Positions 2,122 through 41,322 of a DNA stretch of 64,000 nt are shown piece after piece. The position numbers and the translations under genes were made by a program. The DNA is from Streptomyces sp. SID486 (lineage in GTDB: Bacteria; Actinomycetota; Actinomycetes; Streptomycetales; Streptomycetaceae): NCBI RefSeq assembly GCF_009865385.1, contig NZ_WWJT01000547.1, forward strand, positions 1 to 64,000, read 5' to 3'. The notes under the pieces are model-generated. The model saw only the letters and a list, made by a program, of their open reading frames with translations. It ran no database searches and had not been told where the DNA came from. Within the stretch, counting starts at the first letter, position 1; each line of letters starts with the position of its first letter.

Positions 2122-2128
2122 CCCGGGC

Positions 2129-8735: not shown

Positions 8736-8817
8736 GTCCGTGGCCTCCCCTTCGGGTGCTCGGGTGTCCTGGCCAGAGCCTAACCGGCAGGGGCCGGTGT
8801 GGCGTCGTCCGCGGGGG

Positions 8818-8904: not shown

Positions 8905-8952
8905 TCGCCGTGCCCGCGCACGGCGCCGTGCCGCGGTGCGCGGGCCGGCGTC

Positions 8953-11686: not shown

Positions 11687-11704
11687 GTGGTTCCTGAGTC
11701 CGGG

Positions 11705-12127: not shown

Positions 12128-12263
12128 GAATCCCCCTGAGAACAGGCTTACTTGGTCGATCGCCAACCTACGGCGAAGAGGGCGCGGGGCGCTCGTCAAT
12201 TAGTTCGACTATGTCGATGATCACCCTTGTTGCGAAGGGGTTGCACATGCGTACGCCGTGGGA

Positions 12264-13082: not shown

Positions 13083-13210
13083 GGGGGCGCAGGTACCCGC
13101 CGTTCATCCGGTCTTCACCTGTGAGGTTGGCCGGCTTGGGCGCAGGGAATATTGGCGTGTGCATGCTCTGTCCGCACCGCCAGCCGTCCATCCATGTCCC
13201 GGAGGTTGAT

Positions 13211-14098
13211 GTGTCCGGCAGTTCCGTGTATCGCCGTGCCCGTACCGTCGTGGCGGCCGCGGCGGCCCTCGCCGCGGCCGCGGCCGGTCTGTGGACCGGG
13301 CTCGGCCAGCAGTCCGCGCACGCCGCGGGCGCCGTCCCCAGCCCGGACCACGTGGTCGTCGTGGTCTTCGAGAACCACGCGTACAGCCAGGTCATCGGAT
13401 CCTCCAGCGCGCCGTACATCAACTCGCTGAAGGCGGGAGGCGCCAACCTGACCCAGTCGTACGCCGAGACGCACCCGAGCCAGCCCAACTACTTCGCGCT
13501 GTTCTCCGGTTCGACGCAGGGCGTCACCGACGACAGCTGCTACACCCCGGGCTTCTCCTCGGCGCCCAACCTCGCCTCGGAGCTGATCGCCGCGGGCCGC
13601 AGCTGGGCCAGCTACAACGAGACCCTGCCCAGCCAGGGATCCACGGCCTGCACCAGCGGCAAGTACGCCCGCAAGCACAACCCCTGGTTCGGGTTCAGCA
13701 ACGTACCGACGTCGAGCGCCAGGACCTTCGCCCAGTTCCCGGCGGACTACTCGACGCTGCCGGAGGTGTCGTTCGTCGTGCCGAACCTGTGCAGCGACAT
13801 GCACGACTGCTCGGTGTCCTCCGGCGACACCTGGCTGAAGAACAGCCTGGGCGCCTACGCGACCTGGGCCAAGACCCACAACAGCCTGCTCGTCGTCACC
13901 TTCGACGAGGACAACCGGCTGAGCGGGAACAAGATCCCCACCGTCCTCTACGGCCAGCCCGTCACCGCCGGGTCCAGCTCCTCGGCCACGTACAACCACT
14001 ACGACCTGCTGCGCACCCTGGAGGACACCCAGGGCCTGACCACGCACGCGGGCAACGCGGCCTCCGCCAAGGACATCACCGGCATCTGGGCGTCCTGA
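13211..14098 (+). CDS. Secreted phosphoesterase / acid phosphatase family protein
   Basis: 295-aa exported enzyme. An N-terminal YRRARTVV followed by an Ala-rich hydrophobic stretch and AHAAG looks like a signal peptide, possibly Tat-dependent because of the paired Arg. The mature part carries phosphoesterase-superfamily metal-site motifs: VVVVFENHAYSQVIG, HPSQPNYFALFSG and VVTFDEDN. It likely hydrolyses phosphate esters outside the cell. GTG 13211 is chosen because GGAGG is 5 bases upstream; an earlier in-frame ATG lacks such a site. MFS and beta-propeller genes follow almost without gaps, so the three are probably one operon. Confidence 0.85.
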   Translation: MSGSSVYRRARTVVAAAAALAAAAAGLWTGLGQQSAHAAGAVPSPDHVVVVVFENHAYSQVIGSSSAPYINSLKAGGANLTQSYAETHPSQPNYFALFSGSTQGVTDDSCYTPGFSSAPNLASELIAAGRSWASYNETLPSQGSTACTSGKYARKHNPWFGFSNVPTSSARTFAQFPADYSTLPEVSFVVPNLCSDMHDCSVSSGDTWLKNSLGAYATWAKTHNSLLVVTFDEDNRLSGNKIPTVLYGQPVTAGSSSSATYNHYDLLRTLEDTQGLTTHAGNAASAKDITGIWAS

Positions 14099-19155: not shown

Positions 19156-21918
19156 TCAGGGAGCCGGCCGCCCCGAACCGTTGCGGGGGCGGCGGGGAGG
19201 TCCCGGCCGGCGGCCGGCCGGCTCCTGCACCGGCAGACTCCAGGCCCGGCGTACCGACCGCAGAAGGGATCTCGCCGTGTACGGCGACACGGCGAGCTCC
19301 TGCCTGGCCTCCGCCAGCAGCTGCGGATCGCCGTCCGGGTGCGAACCGGCCCGCGCGCTGCGCCTGCTGAACCCTTCGGTACCGAAGATGTCCAACAGGG
19401 TCAGCGAGAAATAGGCGTAGGACGACGCCTCCAGCAGCAGCCGGGAAGTCGCCGCCTCCAGCTGCAGTCCGCCGCCGAAGAAGTCGAACTGCCGCCTGCC
19501 CTCCGCGAAGTCCGCGAGATCCCGGTGGATGGCGGACGCGTCCGTGGACCCCGACCTGAGGTGGGCCATGAGCCGCCGGAAGGACTCCAGCACGGGGCTG
19601 GCCTCCGCGGTCCATTCCTGCCGGCTCAGCAGCACGCGGAAACCCGACAGGGTCTCGTACAGTTCGTCCAGGATCAGCTTCCGGGAGATCTCCGACAGTT
19701 CCACCGCCCCGGTGTTCTTCTCGGTCTCCATGACGCGGCGGCCGTAGCGGACGAGATCCCGGGGAACACCGCCCGACAGGGCGTGCACCAGTTTCATGTA
19801 GGGCGGCGATATGCCGGGAGCCCGCTTCTGCAGGATCCTCATGGACTGGCCGAGCGTGCCGGGCTGCACGTGCACGACGTCGTCGAGCGAACTGTCGGTC
19901 GCGTCCCGGTACGGAAGACCTCTGCGCACGAACGCCGCCCCCACGTCCTCGGCCACCGAGACGAGGTAGTGGACGTGCGCGACCCCGAAGATCGCCTTGA
20001 TCTCGCTCAGGAAGGCGAGCGCCTGCGCGTCGCTGCCCAGCCGGTCGAGTTCGTCGATGGCGATGATCGTGCGCTTGTCCTGCAGGGACCTGGACAGGGC
20101 GATGCTCGCCAGCACGTCCCGGAAGTCCGCCACCAGTTCGGGGAAGTTCGGCGGGACGCTCGTCACCGCCGTCGCGTGCGAACTGCCGACGGAGACGAGC
20201 TGGGACGTGCCCAGATTCAGCGTGGAGGTCGTGCTCTGCACCGTCTGGAGTCGGTACAGCTGGTTGCGGCACTGCCGGACCAGCTGGGGTTCACCCGGTC
20301 TGGGCTTCCATTCTCCGAACTTGTACAGGGCGATGCCGGTCAGCGCCGAGAGGATGCGGAGCTGGTTGTCCTCGTCGGTGACCATGGCCCGCACGGCCGG
20401 AAAGTGGCGGCAGAGGAGGACCCCGCCGGCCAGGCACAGGATCCGGACCAGCCGGAGGACCGCCTTCTTCGGCACCTCCCACGGTCCGACGGACCACTCG
20501 CCCCGGCTGTCGCCGGGGTCCGCGACCCAGTACAGGAAGAAGCAGCCCACCACGGAGAAGGTGGCGACGTCGTCCCCGAGGAACCGGCCCCAGTTGCGCG
20601 CCAGTCCGGGGTCACGGAACAGGGAGACGACCGGCAGGACCACCAGGGTCGTGCCGAGCAGGAACGCTCCCAGGTCCCAGCCGTACCTGAGGGTCCGCAG
20701 GAGGTTCCGGTTCTTCCGGGACCTCCAGATCAGCACTCCCAGCAGGGCGATGGCCACACCCGCTCCGACGTTCTCGCCGTCCCACACCGCGCCCACGAGG
20801 TCCGCCGCGTCACCGGACAGGCGGTGCGTCTGCGACGTGAGCGACTTCCCGTGCTGCTGCTCCAGGGACCGGACCGCCGCGAAGGTGCCCAGTCCGATGA
20901 GGAGCAGCGCCGGAAGGGCGTAGGAGAGCCAGGTGGCGAGACGCTTCAGCCCCGGCACCGTCCGGCGCACGGCCCGCTGCGTCGCCGTGATGCGGGTGAA
21001 GTCGGGGACTCGGTACCCCTCGCTCTCGATGTAGCGCTCGCACAGGGCGGAGAACAGCGACAGGAGGAAGTCGTGCGGGGTGAACGTGGCCGGCGCCGCG
21101 GCGAACACCGAGAAGTCGTTCTCGGTGACGCAGTGCTCCAGCAGCGTGGTCTTGCCCGAGCCCCTGGGCCCGCAGACGGCGATGGTCCCACCGTCCATCT
21201 GCTCCATCTTCCGGGCGAGCTGCGCCGCTCCCGCGCTGTCGACGACGTACTGACGACTCGATGTCGTCCGGAAGCCGTCGTAGTTGTCCGGAAACAGGAG
21301 CTCGTCCGGGTCGTCGCCGAGGAGCGCGTCCAGCACGCGCTTGACCAGGGGCTGCACCCCGTTGGCGCGCAGATCCGCTTCCCAGGCGTTCCCCGCGAGA
21401 CGTGCCCGCAGCGCGAGGAACGTCTGTAAGGGGGTGTGGCAGACGAAACCGCCTGCCAGCATCAGCGTGCGTCTGCTCGGCGGATTCGTGAGCATCAGCA
21501 GAATCGACAGCGCGGTCACGGTGGCGGCCGTGTAGACGGCGACGTCGGGTCGGTTCTGCGACCACATCAGGAAGGACAGGAAGAGGAGGGCTATGGGAAA
21601 TCCGGACCTCCAGTTCCAGTCCATCTCCTGTGCGCGGTACTCCTGGCCGGCTTCGACCCGGCGCAACGCGGAAAGACGGCGGCGGAACTGCTCCAGTGTC
21701 TCCTCGCTCGGCTCCGTCGCGCGCGTGGCGTTGGACTCGGCGGCCATGGCGGAGCGGATGGCCTCGGCGTTGGCCCCCGGCCGCTTGCCCAGACGCCGGG
21801 AGATGTCCGGCTCCTCCAGGCACAGCTCCACGACCTTGCGGTAGATCTCCGCCTCGGTACGGTCTTCCCACACCACGCCGACCAGCCGCTCGTAGACCGA
21901 GCGGGTGTTCCCCACCAT
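19156..21918 (-). CDS. KAP-like P-loop NTPase with inserted membrane segments
   Basis: 920-aa protein with Walker A GPRGSGKT at residues 250-257 and Walker B TIIAIDELDRLG with Asp622-Glu623. Two hydrophobic segments lie before the P-loop (about 105-145). Five more (for example LLLIGLGTFAAV, AIALLGVLIW, VVGCFFLYWV) fall between Walker A and Walker B. Membrane helices inserted at that point are the mark of KAP NTPases, which are usually cytoplasmic ATPases tied to the membrane; several act in phage defence or signalling. ATG 21918 has GGGGGTGG upstream. The N-terminus (1-90) is helical and charged. The Arg-rich Pro tail (last 25 residues) is likely disordered. Function unproven. Confidence 0.72.
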   Translation of the reverse strand: MVGNTRSVYERLVGVVWEDRTEAEIYRKVVELCLEEPDISRRLGKRPGANAEAIRSAMAAESNATRATEPSEETLEQFRRRLSALRRVEAGQEYRAQEMDWNWRSGFPIALLFLSFLMWSQNRPDVAVYTAATVTALSILLMLTNPPSRRTLMLAGGFVCHTPLQTFLALRARLAGNAWEADLRANGVQPLVKRVLDALLGDDPDELLFPDNYDGFRTTSSRQYVVDSAGAAQLARKMEQMDGGTIAVCGPRGSGKTTLLEHCVTENDFSVFAAAPATFTPHDFLLSLFSALCERYIESEGYRVPDFTRITATQRAVRRTVPGLKRLATWLSYALPALLLIGLGTFAAVRSLEQQHGKSLTSQTHRLSGDAADLVGAVWDGENVGAGVAIALLGVLIWRSRKNRNLLRTLRYGWDLGAFLLGTTLVVLPVVSLFRDPGLARNWGRFLGDDVATFSVVGCFFLYWVADPGDSRGEWSVGPWEVPKKAVLRLVRILCLAGGVLLCRHFPAVRAMVTDEDNQLRILSALTGIALYKFGEWKPRPGEPQLVRQCRNQLYRLQTVQSTTSTLNLGTSQLVSVGSSHATAVTSVPPNFPELVADFRDVLASIALSRSLQDKRTIIAIDELDRLGSDAQALAFLSEIKAIFGVAHVHYLVSVAEDVGAAFVRRGLPYRDATDSSLDDVVHVQPGTLGQSMRILQKRAPGISPPYMKLVHALSGGVPRDLVRYGRRVMETEKNTGAVELSEISRKLILDELYETLSGFRVLLSRQEWTAEASPVLESFRRLMAHLRSGSTDASAIHRDLADFAEGRRQFDFFGGGLQLEAATSRLLLEASSYAYFSLTLLDIFGTEGFSRRSARAGSHPDGDPQLLAEARQELAVSPYTARSLLRSVRRAWSLPVQEPAGRRPGPPRRPRNGSGRPAP

Positions 21919-22198
21919 CAGCCACCCCCAGGTGGACGACGATGATAGGGGCCACGCCGCGGACGGGACAGCCCGCCGAAACCACGCACCGACGGGCGTC
22001 CCCCTCGACACAGTGCAGCCAGGCACGATTGTGGTCGCACCACTCCTGCACCTCTTGCCGCAACGCGCTCTTTGCTTCCTACTGCTCAAGCTTGGGCTTG
22101 CTGAGGCTTCGTCGGCAGGATCGCCGCCCCATGGCTGGGGCCGGAAAGCCGTGGACAGTCCGCGTCAGAAGGCCGTCCCTTCCAGCTCACCGAGGACT

Positions 22199-22654
22199 TC
22201 AGAGGGGCGTTTCAACGGTCCATCTTGTTCCAAAAAACCCGTTGTCCGGCTTGAGCTGAAGCGTGTTGGGTCCTGGGTTGCCATCGAGCAACCGCGGTCC
22301 ATTCGCCGCACTGAGGCAAGTGAAGATGAGTGAGTCTTCCGGCCCGTTAGAACGCAGCCACCTGGTGCCCGTGTTCGGCTCGTTGGTGTTTCGTACGAGT
22401 TGAATGGTACCGGTGAACGGATTCCCGTCGAGATAGCGGTCTTCGCTGAACGAGTCCAGAAGGTCAAAGAAGCTGGTGGGGTCCAGGTCCTGCATGCACA
22501 GGAAGGTGTACTGGTTGTTGCCGAGCGCGTTCATCTCCCACCGCGTACCGGGCTCATCCTTGTCCCTCAGGGTTGTTGCAGCAGCTTCCGGGATACCGGC
22601 GAGATAGTGCTTCCCGGGAAAGTCGGCTTTGCAGCGAAGATGCACCAGCGCCAT
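22199..22654 (-). CDS. Small beta-trefoil-like protein (three internal repeats)
   Basis: 151-aa cytoplasmic-type protein with no signal peptide. Three repeats can be aligned: KHYLAG..GTRWEM (about residues 15-41), RYLDGNP..TGTRWLR (73-101) and RLLDGNP..FGTRWTV (121-147). A ricin-like or fascin-like beta-trefoil is the natural reading. I recognise no family. Start ATG 22654 is preceded by GGGAG. Base composition is less GC-rich than the chromosome around it. It sits between the KAP-like NTPase and the element border; a ligand-binding or targeting role is possible. Confidence 0.55.
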   Translation of the reverse strand: MALVHLRCKADFPGKHYLAGIPEAAATTLRDKDEPGTRWEMNALGNNQYTFLCMQDLDPTSFFDLLDSFSEDRYLDGNPFTGTIQLVRNTNEPNTGTRWLRSNGPEDSLIFTCLSAANGPRLLDGNPGPNTLQLKPDNGFFGTRWTVETPL

Positions 22655-23036
22655 GGCGAGGCTCCCTTCCCTTTGACATATTCCAGCACAGGAAGATTTA
22701 TGTGGGAACTCAAGCACATCCTCACCCGCGAGAGTTTCGCCTCAACTACCAGGTTGGCTGGTTGCCGCCAGCTGCGCAACTCCCGGCCGGCCGTCGTGCG
22801 GAGCTGCGCCAGGAGAGAGCTATTCACCCCGAAAGGCATCAATTCCCGCAAGAGCTGTGCCGCTGAGTCGCCGAGAGGACCCTGTTCCCCTCGCCCAGCC
22901 GCCGACCCCTGCGCCGCCTCCATGAGCGCGAGCACTTCCTCGCCTTCGCGCCAACTGACGGACTGGAACGAAGTCTTGGGGCCGAGGCTCAGCACCTGCG
23001 ACGGCCCGGAGGCGGCCCAGGGCGGTGCCACAGCGT
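22655..23036. other. Unassigned stretch before the element border
   Basis: No gene is credible here. One minus-strand frame stays open from about 23163 through this stretch and has protein-like segments (ELMPFGVNSSLLAQLRTT, near 22800-22860), but it starts inside the displaced glnA2 end, has no ribosome site and overlaps the trefoil gene. It may be a relic of a protein whose 5' end is gone. Confidence 0.4.
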
Positions 23037-23065: not shown

Positions 23066-23099
23066 TGCGCCGAATCCGGAAGCCCTGCCTGACCTGCCC

Positions 23100-23187
23100 C
23101 TACAGCACCGGCAGGTTCTTGCGCAGCTCGAAGGCCGTCACCTCGGACCGGTACTCGTGCCACTCCGCGCGCTTGTTGCGCAGGAAG
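23100..23187 (-). pseudogene. Displaced 3' end of glnA2 (original chromosomal copy)
   Basis: Reading the minus strand from 23186 gives LRNKRAEWHEYRSEVTAFEL, then RKNLPVL and a stop. The intact gene ends LRNKRSEWEEYRSEV and the same tail, so only Ser/Ala and Glu/His differ while many third positions differ. Homology stops sharply at 23187. This is the stranded end left when the element inserted into glnA2; it has no start and makes no protein. Confidence 0.85.
23169..23187. repeat. Candidate att core, left end of the element
   Basis: The 19-base string GCGCTTGTTGCGCAGGAAG is identical here and at 39942-39960, and homology between the two ends stops immediately to its right. It is the most likely crossover site. 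A second identical string of 21 bases around the stop codon (23100-23120 and 39873-39893) is an alternative. Confidence 0.65.
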
Positions 23188-23386: not shown

Positions 23387-23701
23387 ATGACGCTGACACA
23401 GACCACGCGCAGGCGGCTATGGGCAGGCGGGGCAGCGCTTGGGGCCGTGATGGTGGCAATGGGCGCTTATTTCTTGCATGTTGGCCTGGACCAGTCCAAC
23501 AAGGTCGCCGGAGTCTCAGGGCCATTTCTCGCACTGATCGGAATTGGCCTTTCATGGGTATCAACTATACAGGCCCGCTCAACACCTGGGAGCTCTCAGA
23601 CTCCCACAAGGCAATCACAAAGCAGCGGAAGCAACTCAGTCAACATTCAGTCCACTAACGATATCAACATTGGAAACAACAATAAGTTTGGCGGGCGCTA
23701 A
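23387..23701 (+). CDS. Small membrane protein with Asn-rich C-terminus
   Basis: 104-aa protein with two hydrophobic segments (residues 12-32 and 43-60) and a Ser/Gln/Asn-rich tail SNSVNIQSTNDINIGNNNK. The tail resembles the short beta-type INIG motifs found at the start of the next protein (ARQINIG). Its stop overlaps that gene's ATG as TAATG, so they are coupled. Codon use is AT-richer than the chromosome, especially from 23540 on, which points to recent transfer. No ribosome site is obvious at ATG 23387. Function unknown; probably the membrane partner of the downstream protein. Confidence 0.65.
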   Translation: MTLTQTTRRRLWAGGAALGAVMVAMGAYFLHVGLDQSNKVAGVSGPFLALIGIGLSWVSTIQARSTPGSSQTPTRQSQSSGSNSVNIQSTNDINIGNNNKFGGR

Positions 23702-24726
23702 TGTGGCAGAGACAGAAGGCCGGAGAAAACTCAGCCCTGCTTCAAGCGAGACAGATCAACATTGGTGTGGGCGTCGAGGATGTCGAGTACATCTCCACAA
23801 AGATGGCCATGGAGGTCTTTTCGGCCCACTCCAGAGATGCCTTCCAGCTGATGGCGGAGCGAGTCGAAACGTTCGCACGTACCTACGTTGACCAGATTTT
23901 GCTCGAATCCCCTGAAGCCATCGAGAACATCAAGGACCCAGGCGTTCAGGCAGCAATTTTGGATGCAGAGTCAGCCTACGCTAAGAGCGGAGACGACGAC
24001 CTAGGCGCCCTTCTGGTCGACATTCTGACCAAGAGAACGTCGATTATGGATAGGAACGTTGCACAGCTCGCACTTTCCGAGTCTATCCATGTAGCACAAA
24101 AACTCACAGCGCAGCAGTACTCATCAATGTCCTTGATTTTCTTGCTGCGACACGTCAAGTTCGGCGCGCCGAGCCTCAAGGTCCTGCATCAGAGGTTGCG
24201 CGAAAATCTGGACCCAGTGGCCGCAGAGGCCACTATCACCGGAGCAGACGCACAACACCTAATTGCCACCGGGTGCGCGATCCTCCTGCCCATTTCTCAG
24301 TCTATCCCCGAAGCCATCTCCGGTACATACCCAGGATTCTTTTGCATGGGCCTGGAATCCGACAACCCTGCCGTCAGAGATTTGCCAGCCTCCTACTTCC
24401 AAACATGCATTAGGGATCCCAATAAGGTGCAGGTTGGCTGCGTAGATGAGCAAGCCCTCTCGGTATTGACGGAACAGAATGGAGCTAGCGCATCAGAGAT
24501 TGAAACTCTCAAAGGTCTGCTAAAGGCAAATCCGATGAGTCACGACGACCTAATCAAGGAGCTTATAGCCGTTGCGCCAAATATGCAGTCGGTGGAAGAA
24601 AAATGGAGTAAGACGCTTTTCCCGCAGCTAAGCCTTACTTCGGTGGGCTTGGTTCTCGCCCACTCAAATCTCCTTAGGCTGACAGAGGGCAGATTCGACG
24701 CTCCCCTGGAGGTCTTCCTTTCGTAG
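23701..24726 (+). CDS. LPO_1073/Vpar_1526-family protein
   Basis: 341-aa soluble, mostly helical protein. Features I associate with this widespread but uncharacterised family are present: an MWQ start with a short N-terminal beta segment (QARQINIGVG), IKDPGVQAAILDAESAYAKSG, a GDDDLGALLVDILTKRT segment, and LTAQQYSSMSLIFLL. No enzymatic motif is evident. Start ATG 23701 overlaps the upstream stop. The gene is clearly AT-richer than its neighbours and is accessory cargo at the left end of the element. Co-translation with a membrane protein and location suggest a two-part, possibly defensive, system; that is inference. Confidence 0.75.
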   Translation: MWQRQKAGENSALLQARQINIGVGVEDVEYISTKMAMEVFSAHSRDAFQLMAERVETFARTYVDQILLESPEAIENIKDPGVQAAILDAESAYAKSGDDDLGALLVDILTKRTSIMDRNVAQLALSESIHVAQKLTAQQYSSMSLIFLLRHVKFGAPSLKVLHQRLRENLDPVAAEATITGADAQHLIATGCAILLPISQSIPEAISGTYPGFFCMGLESDNPAVRDLPASYFQTCIRDPNKVQVGCVDEQALSVLTEQNGASASEIETLKGLLKANPMSHDDLIKELIAVAPNMQSVEEKWSKTLFPQLSLTSVGLVLAHSNLLRLTEGRFDAPLEVFLS

Positions 24727-24927: not shown

Positions 24928-26163
24928 ATGCGTGGTCTAGGAGATCATCTCAGCGTCGGTGAGCGCATCGCGTTCTACCGAAAGCGTCGCGGCTACACGC
25001 AAGAGGTACTGGCCGGCCTAGTCGGGCGTAGCACCGACTGGTTGGCGAAGATCGAAACGGGACGCCGGAAGCCTCCCCGGATCGACATGCTCGCGGAGCT
25101 ATCGCGCATCCTGCGCGTGCCCCTCGGCGACCTGCTCGGTCAGACCATGCTCATGGAGGACGAGAAGCAGCGGGACGACGTTCCGGCCGTGCGCGATGCG
25201 CTCATGAGCCCGCGCCGGCTATCTCGTCTGCTCTTCGGCCCCGAGGCTGAGGCGCAGCTTCCTACGCCCGTGCCCGTGGCCGTGCGTGTGGAGCAGGCGT
25301 GGAACGACTACCAGGGTGGGCGGCTCGGCAGCGTCATCGCTGCACTTCCCGCCCTCCTCCAGACTGCGCAAGAACTGGAGGAGCGAGCCGCACGGCGCGG
25401 CGAGGACCGTAGCGACTGCTGGGCAGTGTCGGCCCGCACTCACCACCTCGCAGCAACGACCCTCGCGAAGATCGGCGAATCGGACATCTCATGGCTCGCC
25501 GCAGAGCGCGCGATGCGTGCCGCAGACGAGTCTGACAACCCGCTCGTGTTGGCGTCCGCCGCACGGTCAGGCACTCACGCCCTGCTGGCCAACGGCCGGT
25601 ACGACGATGCTTTGGAGCTGGGCAATACGGCCGCCGCATGGCTGTCGTCTCAGGTGACCGACAACGACCCTGCGGCACTGAGTTTGCTGGGGATGATCCA
25701 CCTGCGGGCCGCTGTCGCAGCAGCCCGCCACCAGGACCGGCCCACCGCAACCGGACTGCTGAGTCGAGCCGAGGAACTCGCGGATGACCTCGGCTCGGAT
25801 GAGAACTACTGGCAGACCGGCTTCGGACCCACGAACGTCCTGCTTCACCGTTTGTCGGTTGAGCTGGACCTCGACAACGTGTCGTACGTGGTGGAGCACG
25901 GGCGCATCAACGTCGACCACATGCCGCAGGAACGCAGCGTCTCGCATCGGATCGACTACGCACGCGCCCTCTCGCTCGCCGGACAGGGTGATGATGCGTT
26001 CACGGAGCTGCGTACGGCTGAGCGCACGTCGCCGCAGCTCGTACGCAACAATCCCAGGGTGCGCGAGACGCTGCGGGACCTGATCAAACAGTCTCCGGTC
26101 ACTGGTGGCTCGCGTTCATCCGAAGTGTTCGTGATGGCTCAGCGGTGCAGGGCGGTGCAGTGA
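24928..26163 (+). CDS. XRE-family regulator with TPR-like helical domain
   Basis: 411-aa protein. Residues 7-65 form an XRE helix-turn-helix (RIAFYRKRRGYTQEVLAGLVGRS), followed by helical TPR-like repeats that in this family bind peptides or small ligands. Start ATG 24928 has GGAGG 9 bases upstream. The next gene, a flavoprotein, starts in the stop codon (GTGA). XRE-TPR plus flavoprotein pairs are common in Streptomyces and its mobile elements; the regulated target is unknown. The pair is set off by hairpins on both sides. Confidence 0.85.
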   Translation: MRGLGDHLSVGERIAFYRKRRGYTQEVLAGLVGRSTDWLAKIETGRRKPPRIDMLAELSRILRVPLGDLLGQTMLMEDEKQRDDVPAVRDALMSPRRLSRLLFGPEAEAQLPTPVPVAVRVEQAWNDYQGGRLGSVIAALPALLQTAQELEERAARRGEDRSDCWAVSARTHHLAATTLAKIGESDISWLAAERAMRAADESDNPLVLASAARSGTHALLANGRYDDALELGNTAAAWLSSQVTDNDPAALSLLGMIHLRAAVAAARHQDRPTATGLLSRAEELADDLGSDENYWQTGFGPTNVLLHRLSVELDLDNVSYVVEHGRINVDHMPQERSVSHRIDYARALSLAGQGDDAFTELRTAERTSPQLVRNNPRVRETLRDLIKQSPVTGGSRSSEVFVMAQRCRAVQ

Positions 26164-26723
26164 GTTCAGGCAGGCGTGGAGTGCTCGGGGTCGTCGGGTC
26201 TGCGGCCGGAGGCGTTGAGTCGCTGCGTACCGGTCTCGTAGAGCCCGCGATGGATCGCGGATGGCAGGTGGCCGTCACGCTCACGCCGACCGCAGGTCAG
26301 TGGCTGCGCCTCAGTGGCGAGGCCGAGCGGCTGGAGAAGCTGACCGGCCTACCCGTCCGCGATGAGCCCCGGTTGCCCGGCGAGGCGCGACCGCACCCGC
26401 CGGTTGACTGCTACGTCGTCGCTCCCGCGTCGGCCAACATGGTCGCCAAGCTCGCGACCGGCCTGATGGACAACCAGGCTCTGACCCAGGTGGGCGAGGC
26501 GATAGGCACCCTCGGTCTGCCGGTTGTCGTCTTCCCTCGGGTGAACGCGGCGCACGCTCGCCACCCGGCATGGCAGCACCACATCGACACCCTCCGGGCG
26601 GGTGGCGTGCATGTCGTCTACGGACCGGATGTGTGGCCCCTGTATGAGCCTCGGGAAGCGCCGGCGGGCCGCCCGCTGCCCTGGACGGCAGTGCTCGACA
26701 CAGTGGATGCGGCCATCCGATGA
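26160..26723 (+). CDS. Flavoprotein (PPC decarboxylase-like fold)
   Basis: 187-aa Rossmann-like flavoprotein family member: GVLGVVGSAAGGVESLR at the start, a DCYVVAPASANMVAKLATG motif that binds flavin phosphate, and ALTQVGEAIGTLGLPVVVFPRVN. The last stretch matches flavin-binding (Dfp/EpiD type) decarboxylases, but the catalytic His and substrate cannot be fixed. GTG 26160 overlaps the upstream regulator's stop. Partner of the XRE-TPR protein in one transcript, closed by the hairpin at 26756. Confidence 0.8.
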   Translation: MSSGRRGVLGVVGSAAGGVESLRTGLVEPAMDRGWQVAVTLTPTAGQWLRLSGEAERLEKLTGLPVRDEPRLPGEARPHPPVDCYVVAPASANMVAKLATGLMDNQALTQVGEAIGTLGLPVVVFPRVNAAHARHPAWQHHIDTLRAGGVHVVYGPDVWPLYEPREAPAGRPLPWTAVLDTVDAAIR

Positions 26724-28565: not shown

Positions 28566-29557
28566 TGTCGCAGTCCGCGGAACGCGCGACGGTGCCGCCG
28601 CTCACTCACCCGGAAATGGGGCTCGCCGGTGTGGGCGCGCTGGCCGCGGCCGGCGTGGGCGCACTCGGTCTGATTTCCTCTTTCGACGCGGTGTCGTTGG
28701 CCGCGGCGCGGTGGGGGTTCGGTGAGCCGTGGATGCTGCCGGTCGGCATCGATACCGCGATCCCGGTGTTCACGGTGGCCAACCTGCTGTTGATCCGGAT
28801 GGACATGGCGTTGGCGTGGGTGCGGTTCGTGCCCTGGGCGTTGACCCTGGTCACGTGCGGTTTGAACGTCGCCGCCGGCAACGGAATGTGGGCGAAGGTC
28901 GCACACGGGACGATGCCGCTGCTGTGGGTGGTCTTCTCCGAGATCGGCGCGCACATCTACGCCGTGCGGATCGGTGCTGCGACCGGCCGGCGTATGGAGA
29001 AGATCCGTTTCTCACGGTGGCTGCTGGCGCCGCTGTCGACGTTCGCTCTGTGGCGGCGCATGACCTTGTGGGAAGTCACCTCCTACAGTGCAGCGCTGGC
29101 GTGTGAGCGTGAGCGGTTGCTGATCCGTGCGGATCTGCACGAGCGTTACGGCCGCAGCTGGCGCCGGAAGACCCCGCGGCGTGAGCGCGTGATGCTCCGC
29201 ATGGGCGAACTCGCCCCCGCCGCCCCGATGCCGGCTGCCACCGCCCCGGAGCCTGAGCCGGTGCAGGCACCGGAGTCGCCGGAGCCCGCAACGCCTCGTC
29301 CGTCGCGCAAGCGGCCGGCCAAGGCCAAGCCCGCTCCGGTGCAGCGCACCGCCGCCGACATGCTGACTGAAGCCCGCAAGGTCACAGCGGACTGGACGGA
29401 TGACGCGGTCAACGCCGAGGCGCTGCGGAAGGTGCTGCGGTGCGGGTCGGCGTCGGCGCGGCAGGTGCGTGACGTCCTGCTCGCCGAACGCTCGGAGGCT
29501 CGTTCCCTGCGTCCGGCGGACGTCGTCCCGGCTGAGGCTGAGGGGGTGGCGGCATGA
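28562..29557 (+). CDS. DUF2637 (SpdB-like) membrane protein
   Basis: 331-aa protein. Residues 20-140 hold four hydrophobic segments typical of DUF2637 (GLISSFDAVSLAA, PWMLPVGIDTAIPVFTVANL, WVRFVPWALTLVTCGLNVAAGN, MPLLWVVFSEIGAH). The C-terminal half is soluble: basic after residue 180, then a Pro/Glu-rich linker and a short helix-turn region (LRKVLRCGSASARQVRDVL) that could bind DNA. In Streptomyces plasmids related Spd proteins help spread incoming DNA along the mycelium. GTG 28562 overlaps the upstream stop; ATG 28565 is also possible. Confidence 0.8.
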   Translation: MMSQSAERATVPPLTHPEMGLAGVGALAAAGVGALGLISSFDAVSLAAARWGFGEPWMLPVGIDTAIPVFTVANLLLIRMDMALAWVRFVPWALTLVTCGLNVAAGNGMWAKVAHGTMPLLWVVFSEIGAHIYAVRIGAATGRRMEKIRFSRWLLAPLSTFALWRRMTLWEVTSYSAALACERERLLIRADLHERYGRSWRRKTPRRERVMLRMGELAPAAPMPAATAPEPEPVQAPESPEPATPRPSRKRPAKAKPAPVQRTAADMLTEARKVTADWTDDAVNAEALRKVLRCGSASARQVRDVLLAERSEARSLRPADVVPAEAEGVAA

Positions 29558-30201
29558 GCACGCTGGCCACGCTGCTGTTAGCCGTGCTGCCGCTGGTGGC
29601 GGGGTGGGTGGTTCATGTGCGGTGGCTGCACCGCTGCCTGAGCACCGCGCGCCTGGACCCGTTGACGGGTCTGGTCACTCGCGACGGGTTCACCCGCCGC
29701 GCGAACGCCCTGTTAAAGGATCCGCGGGCGGTCGTTGTCCTCGCCGACGTTGACAAGTTCAAGCAGATCAACGACACCCACGGGCACGCCGCGGGTGATG
29801 CGCTGCTGAAGGCTACCGCTGACCGCCTCGCCCACCACGCGGGTCGCTCCGGCATCGCCGGCCGTCTGGGAGGCGATGAGTTCGCCGCCGTGCTCATCGA
29901 CACTCACGGCACCGCCGCCGACATGCTGACCCTGCTCCACGGCGTGCTGGCCCGCCCGGTCGACGGCCACGACCCCGACGTGCACACCACGGTCTCGCTG
30001 GGCTGGGTACGCGCCGCGGACTTCCCCGCCGACAACCTGTCCGAGCTGCTGCGCCGGGCGGATGAGGCGATGTACGCGGCCAAGCAAGCCCGCTCCGGCA
30101 CCCGCCGGGCGGGCCTGGGACGGCTGTTCGCCACGATCGCCGGGCGCCGCTCCGGCCGCACCGGGACCCGCTCTGACGGGCCCGTGGGGGTGGCGGTCTG
30201 A
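29554..30201 (+). CDS. Membrane-anchored GGDEF protein (putative diguanylate cyclase)
   Basis: 215-aa protein: one membrane segment (residues 4-20), a short linker, and a GGDEF domain with DPLTGLVTRDGF, ADVDKFKQINDTHGHAAGD and RLGGDEF (106-110). The active-site signature is complete, so it could make c-di-GMP; the inhibitory RxxD site is not seen in its usual place. Two in-frame TTA codons, at 29578 and 29713, would make translation depend on the bldA leucyl-tRNA. It is inside the transfer operon (overlaps both neighbours). c-di-GMP controls development via BldD in Streptomyces, so the element may delay or steer host differentiation; this is inference. Confidence 0.85.
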   Translation: MSTLATLLLAVLPLVAGWVVHVRWLHRCLSTARLDPLTGLVTRDGFTRRANALLKDPRAVVVLADVDKFKQINDTHGHAAGDALLKATADRLAHHAGRSGIAGRLGGDEFAAVLIDTHGTAADMLTLLHGVLARPVDGHDPDVHTTVSLGWVRAADFPADNLSELLRRADEAMYAAKQARSGTRRAGLGRLFATIAGRRSGRTGTRSDGPVGVAV

Positions 30202-30665: not shown

Positions 30666-32897
30666 GTGAAGCACCCCGACGACGACAACGAACTCTTCAA
30701 CCGACTGGAAGCCGAACTTGCCGCCGACTCCGGCGGGGACGTGGTCGACCTCGACAAGGCACGGTCGGCCCGTGCCGAGTCGGCCGACCCCGGCGCCCGA
30801 CCGGACGCCGACCGGTCGGCCGACTCCCGCCCCGTCGGGTCGGGCATCGAGTCGGCCGACCCGAGTACGCCGGTGTTGGTCGACTCGCCGACGCTGAAGG
30901 CGGCCGGCCCCGGCTACCTCGGTCGGCTTGCCACAGCCAAGCGCCGCGCGGTCATCCCGCTATGGCTGCGATCGGTCTCCGAGCTGAAGACCGCGTCCGG
31001 GTGGGTGGCCCGCCACTACGCCCACACCGCCGGATACCACGCCCTGCGCGCCCCGGTCTACGCCGCGCGGCTCGCCCTCCAGGCACCGACCGGCGCCGCG
31101 CGGTTCGTGGGCGGCACGATGCGATGGGTCGCCGACCGTGAAGGCGAACCCGTCCGCCTCGCCGCCGTGCGCCGCGAGGACGCAGCCGAATACCTGAAAC
31201 TGTCGAGGCAGCGTGACGGCCGCGTGCGGCTACGAACCCTGGTTGCCGTGCTCGCCCTGTTCGTCGGTGTCGGGTCGGCGCTGGCCATCTACGTGCTCGC
31301 CCCGGACTGGCTGCAAGCCCTGTCGGCCGGCATGGTCGTGCTGGCGCTCGGGTCGGCCGGCCGGAAGGCGGACGCGCCGCTCATCCACAAGGCTGTGGAA
31401 CTCCCCGACGCACCCAAGCTCACCAGCGACATCGTCCTGCGTGCGCTGGGCGCGCTGGGCATTCCCGCGATCAACCAGGCGCAGGCCAAGGGGCGGGACG
31501 GGTTCGCGTTCACCGCGCCGATCACCCGGGACGGCCCCGGATGGCGCGCGGAAGGCGACCTGCCCTACGGGGTGACCGTCACCGACGTCATCGAGCGTCG
31601 TGACCGTCTCGCGTCCGGTCTGCGCCGCCCGCTGGGCTGTGTGTGGCCCGAAGCCGTGCCGGACGAGCACACCGGCCGTCTCGTGCTGTGGGTCGGTGAC
31701 CAGGACCTCAAGAGCGCGCGCAAGCCCCTCTGGCCGCTGCTGAAGTCGGGCACCGTGGACCTGTTCAAGCCCGTCCCCTACGGCACCGACCAGCGCGGAC
31801 GCTGGGTCGACGTCACCCTGATGTTCATCGCCGGCGTCATCGGCGCGATCCCCCGCATGGGCAAGACGTTCCTGCTGCGTCTGCTGCTGCTCATCGCAGC
31901 GCTCGACCCGCGGGCGGAGATCCACTCCTACGACATGAAGGGCACCGGCGACCTGGACCCCGTCGGGGAAAAGGTCTCCCACCGGCACGGCGTCGGCGAG
32001 GAAGACGAAACCCTCCAGTACGCGCTGGCCGACTTCCGGGCCCTGCGCGAGGAACTACGCCGCCGCACCAAGGTGATCCGCTCCCTGCCCCGGGACATCT
32101 GCCCGGAATCGAAGGTGACCAGCGAACTTGCCTCCAAGCGGTCCCTTGGCCTGCACCCCATCGTGATCGGGGTGGATGAGTGCCAAGTGCTGTTCGAGCA
32201 CCCCGACTACGGCAAGGAGTTCGAGGAGATCGCCACCGACCTGGTCAAGCGCGGACCGGCTACCGGGATTGTGCTGCTGCTGGCCACCCAGCGGCCTGAC
32301 GCGAAGTCCCTGCCCACCGGGATCAGCGCGAACGCGGGCGCCCGTTGGTGCCTGAAGGTCATGGGCCAGACCGAGAACGACATGGTCCTCGGCACGTCGT
32401 CCTACAAGCGCGGCGTACGCGCGACCATGTTCGCGTGGGGTGACAAGGGGCTGCACTACTTCGTCGGCGAGGGCTCCGATGCCCGGATCGTGTCAGCCAC
32501 GTTCGTGGACGCGCCCGGCGCCGAAACCATCGCCGCCCGCGCCCGCACCGTCCGCGAGAAGGCCGGCCTTCTGTCCGGCTACGCGCTCGGCGAGAGCGCT
32601 GGCGAGGTGACCGGGCCGTCCTACGACCTGCTTGCCGACGTGGCGGCCGTGGTCCCGGAGAAGGAAGAGCGGGTGTGGAACGAGCGGATCGCCGCCCGCC
32701 TCGCCGAACTCCGCCCGGACGTCTACGGCGGCTGGAAGGGCGAGAACGTCACCAGCGCACTCAAGCCCCACGGCATCCGCACCCGCGACGTCGCCGGCAC
32801 CACCGACGACGGAACCCGCACCACCCGCCGCGGCATCACCCGCGCCGATCTCCTCAAGGCGATTGCGGAGCGTAACGAAAAGCCGGGCGCGGCATAG
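30666..32897 (+). CDS. traB: FtsK/SpoIIIE-type DNA translocase TraB
   Basis: 743-aa AAA+ motor for conjugative transfer of double-stranded DNA between mycelia. An acidic disordered start (residues 1-80) precedes two membrane segments (about 189-235), then Walker A GAIPRMGKT (393-401) and Walker B IVIGVDE (499-505). A C-terminal helix-turn region (NVTSALKPHGIRTRDVA) may serve as the DNA-reading domain. Start GTG 30666, AAGGA upstream. In Streptomyces plasmids and AICEs TraB alone can move DNA. Repeats directly behind the gene are candidate binding sites. Confidence 0.9.
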   Translation: MKHPDDDNELFNRLEAELAADSGGDVVDLDKARSARAESADPGARPDADRSADSRPVGSGIESADPSTPVLVDSPTLKAAGPGYLGRLATAKRRAVIPLWLRSVSELKTASGWVARHYAHTAGYHALRAPVYAARLALQAPTGAARFVGGTMRWVADREGEPVRLAAVRREDAAEYLKLSRQRDGRVRLRTLVAVLALFVGVGSALAIYVLAPDWLQALSAGMVVLALGSAGRKADAPLIHKAVELPDAPKLTSDIVLRALGALGIPAINQAQAKGRDGFAFTAPITRDGPGWRAEGDLPYGVTVTDVIERRDRLASGLRRPLGCVWPEAVPDEHTGRLVLWVGDQDLKSARKPLWPLLKSGTVDLFKPVPYGTDQRGRWVDVTLMFIAGVIGAIPRMGKTFLLRLLLLIAALDPRAEIHSYDMKGTGDLDPVGEKVSHRHGVGEEDETLQYALADFRALREELRRRTKVIRSLPRDICPESKVTSELASKRSLGLHPIVIGVDECQVLFEHPDYGKEFEEIATDLVKRGPATGIVLLLATQRPDAKSLPTGISANAGARWCLKVMGQTENDMVLGTSSYKRGVRATMFAWGDKGLHYFVGEGSDARIVSATFVDAPGAETIAARARTVREKAGLLSGYALGESAGEVTGPSYDLLADVAAVVPEKEERVWNERIAARLAELRPDVYGGWKGENVTSALKPHGIRTRDVAGTTDDGTRTTRRGITRADLLKAIAERNEKPGAA

Positions 32898-38208: not shown

Positions 38209-38448
38209 ATCGACACCGCACTTGATCGGCCAGACCCCCGCGCCATCCTCCGCGGCGGTCTACCCGATCGCTACCTCATCCCCGACGACATCGCCGAGAT
38301 CTTCGAGGTGCCCAAGGAAACGGTCTACCAGTGGCGCAAGAAGCGCACCGGTCCGCCCGGCTTCCGCATCGGCAAGCACCTCCGCTACGACCCCGCCGAC
38401 GTGCGCGCCTACGTCATCCAACGCAAGGCCGCGGACGCCGCCGCATAA
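38209..38448 (+). CDS. xis: Excisionase-type helix-turn-helix protein (no standard start)
   Basis: 79-aa MerR/excisionase-like protein: RYLIPDDIAEIFEVPKETV, then YQWRKKRTGPPGFRIGKHLR and YDPADVRAYV. It should bend att DNA with Int and tip recombination to excision. The frame has no ATG, GTG or TTG between the upstream in-frame stop (38137) and the domain. The best position is ATC at 38209, 6 bases after GGAGG. An ATC start is rare; sequencing error or a frameshift from the ATG at 38144 are alternatives. Located 81 bases before int. Confidence 0.7.
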   Translation: MDTALDRPDPRAILRGGLPDRYLIPDDIAEIFEVPKETVYQWRKKRTGPPGFRIGKHLRYDPADVRAYVIQRKAADAAA

Positions 38449-38463
38449 GCAACACACCCCACC

Positions 38464-38507
38464 CACACAGCAGGGAGAGCCGCCCACGCGGCTCTCCCTG
38501 CTGTGTG
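38464..38507 (+). terminator. 20-bp perfect hairpin between xis and int
   Basis: CACACAGCAGGGAGAGCCGC pairs over its full length with 38488-38507 around CCAC. It sits 15 bases after xis and 21 bases before the int start, and could terminate xis transcripts or set the ratio of Xis to Int. Confidence 0.7.
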
Positions 38508-38528
38508 TCGAGAGAGGACTACTGCCTG

Positions 38529-39797
38529 ATGGCAGGCCACATCCAAGACCGGTGGTACAAAACTGAAACCGACGCCGCCGGCAAGCCCCGCCGTGTACGC
38601 ACGGACCGCTACGGCACCGGGTTGCGCTACCGCGCCCGCTATATCGGCCCGGACGGGACCGAGAAGAGCAAGTCATTCACCGACGGACAGAAGCGACTGG
38701 CCGATCAGTGGCTCGCCCACATTGAGGCGGACATGTCTCGGGGCCAGTACGTGGACCCCGCCGCGAGCCGAGTGACGTTTCGGCAGTACGCCGAGAAGTG
38801 GCTGAGCACCCAGACCACCGACATGACCACGCGAGAGTCGGTGGGGTCCGCGATTCGGGGCCATGCAATCCCCTACCTGGGACCGCGACCGCTCGGCTCG
38901 TTCAAACCGGAACACATCCGGGACTGGCTCAGCGAACTGGAACAGGCTGTCCCTGCGTCGTCGTACCGGCGCGTGATCTACAACAACGTATCCACGGTCC
39001 TCAATGCGGCCGTGGACGACGGGCACCTGTCGAAGAACCCGTGCCACGCGCAATCGGTGCGTCCGCCTGCTGCGGGTACTGGTCGCGTTGTGCCGTGGGC
39101 GGTAGAGCGCGTCTTCGCCGTACGAGCGGCGCTCCCGAAGCGATACCGCGCGACGGTTGACCTCGGAGGCGGATGCGGACTTCGGCAAGGGGAGATCTTC
39201 GGTTTGCCCGTCGATGCAATCGGCTTCGACTCCGGATGGCTGCATATCGCGAACCAGGTGAAGGTGACGAAAGACGGTCTCGTGTTCGGCCCGCCGAAGC
39301 GCAACAAGATCCGCGACGTTCCCCTGCCGGACCGCGTAGCGCACGTTCTCAAGCAGCACATGGAGGCGTTCCCCCCGGTGGAGATCACCCTGCCGTGGCT
39401 CCGGGTGGACGGTCCGCCTGTCACCAAGCAGCTGCTGTTCACCCGCCTCGACGGCGCGGGCGCGGTTCGGCGCACCGACTTCAACGACCGCGCATGGAAG
39501 CCTGCTCTCGTAGCTGCTGGGGTGATCCCCGCGCCGAAACCGGGAGAGCGTCACCAAGCTGCCCGCGAACACGGCATGCACGCTCTCAGGCACTTCTACG
39601 CCTCGGTCCTGCTGGACGCCGGCGAGAACATCAAGGCACTGAGTCACTACCTTGGACACAACGATCCGGGATTCACGCTCCGGGTCTACACGCACCTCAT
39701 GCCGAGCAGCGACGCACGGGCCCGGAAGGCTGTGGACGGCCTGTACGAGGGCACCGATCCGGCGGCAGACGGCCCCGAGACGGCCCAGGGCCAGTGA
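38529..39797 (+). CDS. int: Tyrosine-type site-specific integrase
   Basis: 422-aa phage-type recombinase. N-terminal arm-binding region (1-65), SAM-like core-binding domain (about 80-180), catalytic domain with Arg219 (GLRQGE), His351-xx-Arg354 (HALRH), His377 (LGHNDPG) and nucleophile Tyr387 (VYTHL). ATG 38529 has GAGAGAGGAC upstream. The stop is only 9 bases before the glnA2 terminator copy and 145 before the candidate right att core, typical of Int genes next to attP. It presumably directs insertion into the glnA2 3' end, an unusual target. Confidence 0.92.
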   Translation: MAGHIQDRWYKTETDAAGKPRRVRTDRYGTGLRYRARYIGPDGTEKSKSFTDGQKRLADQWLAHIEADMSRGQYVDPAASRVTFRQYAEKWLSTQTTDMTTRESVGSAIRGHAIPYLGPRPLGSFKPEHIRDWLSELEQAVPASSYRRVIYNNVSTVLNAAVDDGHLSKNPCHAQSVRPPAAGTGRVVPWAVERVFAVRAALPKRYRATVDLGGGCGLRQGEIFGLPVDAIGFDSGWLHIANQVKVTKDGLVFGPPKRNKIRDVPLPDRVAHVLKQHMEAFPPVEITLPWLRVDGPPVTKQLLFTRLDGAGAVRRTDFNDRAWKPALVAAGVIPAPKPGERHQAAREHGMHALRHFYASVLLDAGENIKALSHYLGHNDPGFTLRVYTHLMPSSDARARKAVDGLYEGTDPAADGPETAQGQ

Positions 39798-39834: not shown

Positions 39835-39872
39835 ACCTGCTGAATCGACTGGAAACCCGTCCTGACCTGCTC

Positions 39873-41234
39873 CTACAGCACCGGCAGGTTCTTCCGCAGC
39901 TCGAACGCGGTGACCTCGCTGCGGTACTCCTCCCACTCCGAGCGCTTGTTGCGCAGGAAGAAGTCGAAGACGTGTTCGCCGAGGGTCTCGGCGACCAGGT
40001 CGCTGCGTTCCATGAGGGACAGGGCCTCGCCGAGGTTCTGCGGGAGGGGCTCGATGCCCATCGCGCGGCGCTCGGCGTCGGAGAGGGCCCAGACGTCGTC
40101 CTCGGCGCCCGGCGGGAGTTCGTACCCCTCCTCGATGCCCTTGAGGCCGGCGGCCAGCAGGAGGGCGTAGGCCAGGTACGGGTTGGCGCCGGAGTCCAGG
40201 GAGCGGACCTCCACCCGTGCGGAGCCCGTCTTGCCGGGCTTGTACATCGGGACGCGGACCAGGGCGCTGCGGTTGTTGTGGCCCCAGCAGATGTACGAGG
40301 GGGCCTCGCCGCCCGCGCCCGCCGTGCGCTCGGAACCGCCCCAGATGCGCTTGTAGGAGTTCACCCACTGGTTGGTGACCGCGGAGATCTCCGCGGCGTG
40401 CTTGAGCAGGCCCGCGATGAAGGAGCGGCCGACCTTGGAGAGCTGGTACTCGGCGCCGGACTCGTAGAACGCGTTGCGGTCGCCCTCGAAGAGGGACAGG
40501 TGGGTGTGCATGCCGGAGCCGGGGTGCTCGGAGAAAGGCTTCGGCATGAACGTCGCCTGGACCCCCTGCTCCAGCGCCACCTGCTTCATGACCAGGCGGA
40601 AGGTCATGATGTTGTCGGCCGTGGAGAGCGCGTCGGCGTACCTGAGGTCGATCTCCTGCTGGCCGGGGGCGCCCTCGTGGTGGGAGAACTCCACCGAGAT
40701 GCCCATCGACTCCAGCATGGTGATCGCCTGCCGGCGGAAGTCCATGCCGACGTTGGTGGGGGTGTGGTCGAAGTAGCCCGAGTTGTCGGCGGGGGTCGGG
40801 CGGGTGCCGTCCAGCGGGCGGTCCTTCAGCAGGAAGAACTCGATCTCCGGGTGGGTGTAGAAGGTGAAGCCCAGGTCGGAGGTGCGGGCCAGGGCCCGCT
40901 TGAGGACGTAGCGCGGGTCGGCGAAGGAGGGGGAGCCGTCCGGCATGAGGATGTCGCAGAACATGCGGGCGGTGCCGGGGGTCTCGGCGCGCCACGGCAG
41001 GACCTGGAAGGTGGACGGATCCGGCTTGGCGATCATGTCGGACTCGTAGACCCGGGCGAAGCCCTCGATGGCGGAACCGTCGAAGCCGATGCCCTCGTCG
41101 AAGGCCTGCTCCAGTTCGGCGGGGGCCACGGCGACGGACTTGAGGAAGCCCAGCACGTCCGTGAACCACAGCCGTACGAACCGGATGTCACGCTCCTCCA
41201 AGGTCCGGAGCACGAACTCCTGCTGCTTGTCCAT
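39873..41234 (-). CDS. glnA2: Glutamine synthetase-like gamma-glutamylpolyamine synthetase GlnA2
   Basis: 453-aa GS-I fold enzyme with N-terminal beta-grasp (FDGSAIEGF), HPEIEFFL, GSGMHTHLSLF and the arginine motif RVEVRSLDSGANPYL. Streptomyces GlnA2 of this length glutamylates polyamines such as putrescine and cadaverine rather than ammonia; I assign it from gene context and length. A Tyr sits in GYELPPG, where GS-I enzymes carry the adenylylation site (NLYDLP). ATG 41234 has GGGGAAG upstream; ATG 41249 is less likely. The last 19-30 codons come from the inserted element, which restores the C-terminus as KNLPVL. Confidence 0.88.
   Translation of the reverse strand: MDKQQEFVLRTLEERDIRFVRLWFTDVLGFLKSVAVAPAELEQAFDEGIGFDGSAIEGFARVYESDMIAKPDPSTFQVLPWRAETPGTARMFCDILMPDGSPSFADPRYVLKRALARTSDLGFTFYTHPEIEFFLLKDRPLDGTRPTPADNSGYFDHTPTNVGMDFRRQAITMLESMGISVEFSHHEGAPGQQEIDLRYADALSTADNIMTFRLVMKQVALEQGVQATFMPKPFSEHPGSGMHTHLSLFEGDRNAFYESGAEYQLSKVGRSFIAGLLKHAAEISAVTNQWVNSYKRIWGGSERTAGAGGEAPSYICWGHNNRSALVRVPMYKPGKTGSARVEVRSLDSGANPYLAYALLLAAGLKGIEEGYELPPGAEDDVWALSDAERRAMGIEPLPQNLGEALSLMERSDLVAETLGEHVFDFFLRNKRSEWEEYRSEVTAFELRKNLPVL
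39942..39960. repeat. Candidate att core, right end, inside glnA2
   Basis: Same 19 bases as at 23169-23187. It codes for part of FLRNKR near the glnA2 C-terminus, so crossover here keeps the reading frame. Codons on its left come from the element, codons on its right from the host gene. Confidence 0.65.
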
Positions 41235-41322
41235 CTTCCGCTTCCCCATCCTTGCTGGTCAGGCCGCCTGTCCCGGGCACCACGGGTGGCGGTCGGGCAC
41301 CTGAGCATCCCACCACAACAGC

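Follow-up and report, generated by a model that had tools for sequence, protein, structure and literature searches.

A membrane protein and an LPO_1073/Vpar_1526 family protein that share a Q-x9-Q motif: candidate exclusion cargo of actinobacterial mobile elements and phages

At one end of a Streptomyces integrative element, a gene for a small membrane protein (ORF A) overlaps a gene for a protein of the LPO_1073/Vpar_1526 family (ORF B, the LPO protein), and the C-terminal tail of the first carries the same glutamine-spaced motif as the N-terminus of the second. The same arrangement recurs in distant actinobacteria, in phages and in Escherichia coli prophages. That the two genes act as one functional unit coupled through this motif is very probable. 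The reading preferred here, to which we give even odds (a probability of roughly 0.5), is that the LPO protein would act as trigger, the duplicated motif as link and the membrane protein as effector, in a cargo system by which mobile elements would exclude phages or rivals.

The features of the 64-kb window (the whole stretch of DNA that was analysed) are collected in Table 1. The coordinates, both reading frames and the TAATG overlap between the ORF A stop codon and the ORF B start codon, as read from the sequence, were found exactly as first annotated. The GC content of 23387-24726 is 0.539, equal to the lowest of 627 sliding 1340-base windows across the 64 kb, the minimum falling in the one that begins at 23401. 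The first-pass annotation had described the pair as unlike all of its neighbours in base composition; this stands insofar as the pair has the lowest GC for its size, but a 172-aa ORF at 22199-22717 (minus strand) is also low, at 0.574. That ORF had no Pfam, NCBIfam or PADLOC family at E <= 1.

Table 1. Features of the gene pair and of the element that carries it (window coordinates)
Feature	Position	Strand	Description
Displaced copy of last ~110 bp of glnA, attL side	23078..23187	-	87% repeat of 39851-39960
ORF A	23387..23701	+	104-aa membrane protein, two hydrophobic helices, C-terminal tail with shared motif
Shared adaptor motif, ORF A C-terminal tail (RQSQSSGSNSVNIQSTNDINIG)	23609..23674	+	motif-profile match
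ORF B	23701..24726	+	341-aa LPO_1073/Vpar_1526 family protein
Partner motif copy, ORF B disordered N-terminus (residues ~3-22)	23707..23766	+	motif-profile match, weak here
LPO_1073_dom (NF045477) match in ORF B	23764..24699	+	NCBIfam
Tyrosine integrase of element	38331..39797	+	PF00589, 7.8e-13
Other copy of the glnA repeat, at 3' end of intact glnA, attR side	39851..39960	-	110-bp repeat
Intact glnA	39873-41249	-	Gln-synt_C, 414 bits

The pair lies just inside attL of an integrative element of ~16.7 kb in the 3' end of glnA. Its earlier placement at the cargo end beside attL is confirmed by the 110-bp, 87% identical glnA repeat, which makes it left-end cargo. Between the repeats, Pfam identified a tyrosine integrase, a primase-polymerase, a GntR regulator and a DUF2637 protein; a 743-aa protein (30666-32897) had no Pfam match at 1e-5 and is, on our own reading of its sequence, a candidate FtsK-like transfer protein. 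We take the element to be an AICE from its appearance. Several other genes in and around it were noted. A diguanylate cyclase (29554-30201; GGDEF, 7e-33) follows the DUF2637 gene and has an 81% identical relative in L018. Directly 3' of the pair, 24928-26723 encodes a helix-turn-helix protein (NsdA-like TPR region, 49 bits, below the cut-off of 75) and then an overlapping flavoprotein (PF02441), possibly more cargo. Just outside attL, a 977-aa AAA/KAP-type NTPase (19156-22089, minus strand) with hydrophobic stretches judged by eye is a candidate defence ATPase (Pfam AAA_22, 7.5e-9; KAP_NTPase, 20.7 bits against a cut-off of 20; weak PADLOC PifA match, 9.9e-5).

ORF A has two hydrophobic stretches by hydropathy (residues 11-35 and 39-63), followed by a tail with the sequence SVNIQSTNDINIGNNNKFGGR. 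Its AlphaFold model (mean pLDDT 60.7) places helices at 5-33 and 37-64; the tail, modelled with low confidence, has two short strands (77-80, 84-87). The model fits a helical hairpin with a floppy tail. From flanking charges judged by eye, both ends are probably cytoplasmic. In the membrane partners inspected, basic residues follow the last helix, so that by the positive-inside rule, again applied by eye, the tail would be cytoplasmic and within reach of a soluble LPO protein. When seven actinobacterial membrane proteins were aligned, 9 of the 15 invariant columns fell in the last 30 residues (Fisher p 0.011). No family in Pfam, a collection that may lack a Bell model, scored above cut-off for ORF A and five relatives.

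ORF B matches NF045477 (LPO_1073_dom) with 188.4 bits against a cut-off of 45, over model positions 1-252 of 257, and the family assignment made from the sequence by the first-pass annotation was therefore correct. The match begins at residue 22, which leaves the N-terminal motif outside the family model; the start of the protein carries ...ALLQARQINIGVG. The AlphaFold model (mean pLDDT 87.8) is almost all helical, with residues 1-24 below a pLDDT of 50, and is consistent with a well-folded helical body that is taken to be soluble. Neither Pfam nor NCBIfam gave an NTPase family for ORF B at E <= 1. Sequence comparison with the PDB returned 0 matches to the LPO protein at E <= 1, the best Foldseek E-values were 1.1 in the PDB and 0.36 in BFVD, and VIA-align reached a best Z of 7.1 over 80 residues, to helical designs, with weak MarR-like rows at Z 4.2-4.4. 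The search for a known fold thus found no match in the PDB or BFVD, which does not of itself make this a new fold; given this lack of a match, a sensor role for the protein is only putative. PADLOC-DB 2.0.0 had no family for either ORF at E <= 1, and relatives of the pair gave only weak matches there (E 0.0023-0.037). A literature search on the names LPO_1073 and Vpar_1526 returned nothing beyond an outer-membrane proteome study.

Both genes are under purifying selection. For the membrane protein, dN/dS is 0.17 between L005 and L025 and 0.12 between L003 and L022; for the LPO protein it is 0.08 between L005 and L025, the remaining LPO comparisons being saturated or nearly so.

In the loci surveyed, a small membrane gene stands directly upstream of the LPO gene in 21 of the 22 distinct loci with readable upstream DNA, comprising 13 of 14 actinobacterial loci and all 8 phage or prophage lineages (L028, L030, L031, L032, L035, L036, L041 and the P2-like prophages of E. 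coli), and the two genes usually overlap or abut. L029 was left out of this count, as its contig starts at the LPO start codon. The LPO proteins of other loci are 23-39% identical to that of the window (17 compared). The sole LPO gene without a partner (L007/L015, genome G417) also has no motif: among the matches listed for its contig, no frame, LPO included, exceeded -0.9 bits against the tail profiles. On the actinobacterial side, the survey with NF045477 found a member in 5 of 295 Streptomyces genomes, 2 of 396 (phylum), 4 of 293 (order) and 1 of 40 (class of G417), giving 9 distinct loci; a contig scan gave 8, of which 5 were new (L023, L024 and L027 were taken as duplicates, their contigs being equal in length to others in the set). 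The searches covered actinobacteria, E. coli, plasmids and viral collections; the family takes its name from Firmicutes and Legionella members.

Across 5426 complete E. coli genomes the pair was found in 6 at a coverage of at least 80%, two of the places being on plasmids, and a distant DNA search in this species returned the same 7 records as a near search. Among plasmids, neither P0002 nor an actinobacterial LPO protein retrieved a match at 1e-5, and two phage-side LPO queries retrieved two E. coli records only. INPHARED phages gave no LPO homologue, viral contigs searched with the window LPO protein alone gave none, and further homologue searches added no lineage.

The first-pass annotation had noticed an INIG segment common to the ORF A tail and the ORF B start; it is real, and belongs to a longer motif, Q-x9-Q-[A/S/V/I], which all 21 pairs have in the membrane tail and the LPO N-terminus alike. 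All 42 copies compared, cut out and anchored by hand, keep the fixed Q-x9-Q spacing. The motif spans ~12-22 residues rich in N, S, G or A, and in actinobacteria it mostly reads Q-x-[SG]-G-x-x-S-x-N-[hydrophobic]-Q-[AS], in many followed by GD-[IVL]-x-[IV]. The tail and LPO copies are QSSGSNSVNIQS and QKAGENSALLQA in the window, QKGGIGSKNIQV and QKGGIGSTNIQA in L035, and QSVGDNSTAVQA and QQIGNNSYAIQA in E. coli. Although this region is disordered in the ORF B model, and the motif is of low confidence in both AlphaFold models, Q5, Q15 and G22 make up three of just 9 columns that are invariant across 18 LPO proteins.

A profile of the 21 membrane tails found its best match inside residues 1-34 in 18 of 18 LPO proteins, and none of 918 shuffled or reversed decoys reached the median real score, with overlap confined to the three weakest real scores. 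With actinobacterial tails alone, 17 of 18 LPO proteins were matched within residues 1-34. The signal also crosses between groups, as a profile of 13 actinobacterial tails found the phage-side LPO N-termini at E 2.9e-5 to 0.1 (14 LPO proteins), and one of 8 phage-side tails found the actinobacterial N-termini at E 6e-4 to 0.016. The window LPO copy is among the weaker ones (E 0.016-0.029 with the tail profiles, and 0.96 in a search of 101 Streptomyces genomes); the window ORF A tail scored E 5.3e-9 with a profile that includes its own row. The suggestion that the two proteins associate by like motifs, made from the window only, is thus supported by the sequences of 21 of the 22 readable distinct loci.

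Of the 101 Streptomyces genomes, 4 had matches at E < 1e-8, at six positions in total and each time at an LPO pair; the other matches, the window LPO copy included, had E 0.29-0.96. Because some of these loci contributed to the profile, what carries information is the lack of matches at other places; the first pass of the search may also overlook short motifs. Strong matches only at LPO pairs indicate that the motif looks private to the pair in Streptomyces and is not a general amyloid motif. A generic low-complexity tail was rejected on the fixed spacing, the invariant columns and the absence of matches at E < 0.28 elsewhere in these 101 genomes.

Partner-specific co-variation of the two motif copies, with p-values that ignore phylogeny, was significant when the 21 pairs were taken together (BLOSUM p 5e-5, identity p 0.00095) and was seen in 14 pairs thinned by eye (0.00025 and 0.005); 9 of the 13 actinobacterial pairs gave 0.09 and 0.26, and the 8 phage-side pairs 0.03 and 0.07. 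The 21-pair signal follows the split between clades, and co-variation was not accepted as proof of contact.

The membrane portions attached to this motif are diverse. Across loci the whole partner has 52-106 aa and one or two helices, and with tails removed the membrane parts of eight partners fall into four types by pairwise scores against 500 shuffles: the window with L025; L028, L031 and E. coli; L008 with L035; and L041 alone. For partners of the same type, none of the 500 shuffles equalled the real score; for partners of different types 7 to 492 did, which leaves a few of these comparisons borderline. The Q-x9-Q motif is present in all four types. Since L008 (Streptomyces tauricus) and L035 (a viral contig of 36% GC) share a type, one effector type plus motif spans distant hosts.

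The idea that the pair is mobile-element cargo is supported at loci beyond the window. At 8 of the 12 other actinobacterial loci (L011, L012, L013, L014, L016, L018, L020 and L022), the 14-21 kb around the pair contain genes of the window element besides the common GntR match; L017 and L026 have the GntR match only, L021 has a 27% match to the HTH protein, and L025 has none. L012 has, at 1281-13249, another Streptomyces element sited in the glnA 3' end, with an LPO pair, an 84% identical integrase and a 97% identical glnA, the 28-residue end of which is duplicated at 13166-13249. In five viral contigs the LPO gene adjoins, convergently, a gene from a group of 72-78% identity; its identification as integrase comes from one member scanned singly, and five members match the same family. 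The PHROGs scan covered 50 of 106 ORFs of 8 viral contigs. Of the 6 E. coli records, 3 were viewed; in these the pair (WP_000687980.1 and WP_000490525.1 in the P2-prophage form) sits within a P2-like prophage or phage-plasmid, flanked by replication/DinI genes on one side and the portal gene on the other. It had been anticipated that a family usually lacking the membrane partner, and placed away from mobile or defence regions, would speak against a defence role; in the sample surveyed this was not the case, with a partner at 21 of 22 loci.

Of these three E. coli records, two have a three-gene cassette beside the pair, two proteins of which match PADLOC Hp1 and Hp2 (792 and 820 bits); from this naming we take the two to belong to a three-gene anti-P1 system. 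In L069 (E. coli PEC422), unannotated genes at 5963-6616 (minus strand) and 4847-5713 (plus strand) replace this cassette and are candidate further systems. The site in all three records is the gpA-gpQ hotspot of the P2-like prophage, which is the same hotspot that, according to the accessible part of PMC9122126, is an experimentally established anti-phage site; in that part, the text on tested hotspot systems does not name the LPO pair.

Defence matches elsewhere around the pair are scattered. PADLOC gave a match in 3 of 10 chosen neighbours. A methyl-directed restriction enzyme (PADLOC) is next door in L021, and in L036 a gene close upstream of the phage LPO pair (4486-5325, minus strand) matches 2TM_IV at 3.1e-9. 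Among 126 predicted proteins from 6 actinobacterial loci, LPO proteins included, PADLOC and Pfam gave only scattered defence matches, a count that comes with no background rate: single SAVED_HNH, SspH, ZorD, endonuclease effectors and PDC candidates, and two mads_2. Across L017, L021, L025 and L026, where 41 of 74 proteins were run against Pfam, two FtsK/SpoIIIE members turned up. These neighbour scans used heuristic ORF calls and part of the ORFs, from loci other than L018, L020 and L022. A literature search combining AICE with defence found no paper. It is the location of the pair that makes exclusion of phages or rival elements by it somewhat probable; counting against defence, proximity to an integrase suits any cargo gene.

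Taken together, these observations suggest the following mechanism. The small protein would be anchored in the cytoplasmic membrane, its C-terminal tail facing the cytoplasm, and the soluble LPO protein would present the same motif on its disordered N-terminus. The LPO body may hold or sense a state that an incoming phage or a competing element brings about; once triggered, LPO proteins would cluster and so align their N-terminal motifs, which would template the corresponding membrane-protein tails through a contact that is homotypic and probably cross-beta (amyloid-like). Clustered in turn, the membrane protein would perturb the membrane, and the invader would be stopped or the cell killed. 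As cargo of AICEs and temperate phages, the pair would serve carriers that benefit from excluding rivals. Amyloid-like templating between the motif copies is proposed tentatively, by analogy of architecture. A broader version is more doubtful still, namely that LPO_1073 sensors nucleate interchangeable one- or two-helix effectors via Q-x9-Q as a cross-phylum, NLR-independent form of amyloid-like signalling, by which temperate phages and conjugative elements, and not filamentous bacteria alone, exclude competitors.

The main rival is a static one, in which the two proteins would form a constitutive complex for superinfection or entry exclusion, the LPO protein being tethered by stable docking of the motif and blocking DNA entry or conjugative transfer without death or amyloid. 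The carriers (viral contigs, P2-like prophages and integrative elements) would gain from such exclusion, and the motif would do just as well for static docking. One-helix versions of this tiny membrane protein are unlikely to be pores alone, which also counts against the triggered mechanism preferred here. Nevertheless, a near-identical N/S/G/Q-rich motif shared by two partners typifies homotypic adaptors more than it does lock-and-key docking, as far as the available portions of PMC7889193 and PMC7159879 describe them, and we regard static docking as unlikely, at about one chance in five.

A toxin-antitoxin system, in which the LPO protein would hold a membrane toxin inactive by binding its tail and the role would be maintenance of the element, could likewise account for a small membrane protein with an overlapping downstream gene on mobile elements, and for an LPO gene standing partnerless only in L007. 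The supposed antitoxin would, however, be three times the size of its toxin, no DNA-binding family reached cut-off in ORF B in Pfam or NCBIfam (a YfeC-like match had 12.2 bits against 22.9), and one would not expect an inhibitor to bear a copy of the toxin's own tail, all of which makes this improbable. Most improbable is a housekeeping role, with LPO-dependent replication, segregation or transfer brought to the membrane and no part in exclusion: it would suit a family without assigned function near element genes, but the sporadic distribution (the family in few Streptomyces genomes, the pair in few E. coli genomes) and the unrelated carriers (AICE type, P2 and other phages) are those of cargo, unlike core functions.

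The triggered, motif-coupled mechanism favoured here has its nearest counterpart in the BASS amyloid signalosomes (Dyrka et al. 2020), in which, according to the accessible text of PMC7889193, a motif on the C-terminus of a membrane-targeted protein is matched on the N-terminus of a partner encoded by an adjacent or overlapping gene. The LPO pair is alike in being such a two-gene unit with a tail motif matched at the partner N-terminus, which was found in 21 of 22 loci. The partner differs, being here an LPO_1073 protein in which no NTPase/NLR domain was found, as does the membrane part, with its one or two helices and no Pfam family at cut-off. BASS, composed of a Bell effector and an NLR, is known mainly from filamentous bacteria such as actinobacteria, in the available parts of PMC7889193, PMC8086366 and PMC12261475, whereas the LPO pair is also in E. 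coli prophages and other phages. EADs provide a second comparison: the accessible text of PMC7159879 describes a duplicated adaptor on a core component and on an effector that is often next door, with adjacent copies most alike and homotypic coupling proposed. The duplicated adaptor across adjacent genes is shared with the LPO pair. EADs differ in that they are small domains of NTP-dependent systems, mostly present as fusions to enzymatic effectors or to signalling parts, and the LPO protein is absent from the core components named in that text. Against the pair and its relatives, only EAD10 of the EAD families gave matches (E 0.04 and 0.055; 14.4 and 13.9 bits, cut-off 24.1). Since the partner is no recognizable NLR and these scores fall below threshold, the pair is likened to such systems and not filed as one.

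Existing catalogues hold the two halves separately. NF045477 includes ORF B as a member and leaves out the N-terminal motif. In PHROGs, the LPO side is phrog_19542 (P0004, 572 bits; P0002, 43 bits) and the E. coli/phage membrane partner is phrog_27656 (P0003, 176 bits; L028 partner, 40 bits), two separate families listed under 'unknown function'; window ORF A matches neither. Literature on amyloid signalling with effectors, Bell or anti-phage terms, and on 2TM effectors with shared motifs, does not describe the pair in titles or abstracts, subscription full texts being mostly outside this search. A review of amyloid signalling asks, in the part available, whether bacterial signalling amyloids exist outside NLR pathways (PMC7889193), and the LPO pair is a compact candidate for one. 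Because the pair is present in P2-like prophages of E. coli, the question is open to a laboratory-strain test with standard coliphages. If the proposal is true, a curated family would acquire a partner and a first function, two PHROGs that now lack a function would be joined, and a portable motif would be available for finding further effectors. Beside BASS and EADs, the pair may then be a small membrane-acting immune or exclusion switch.
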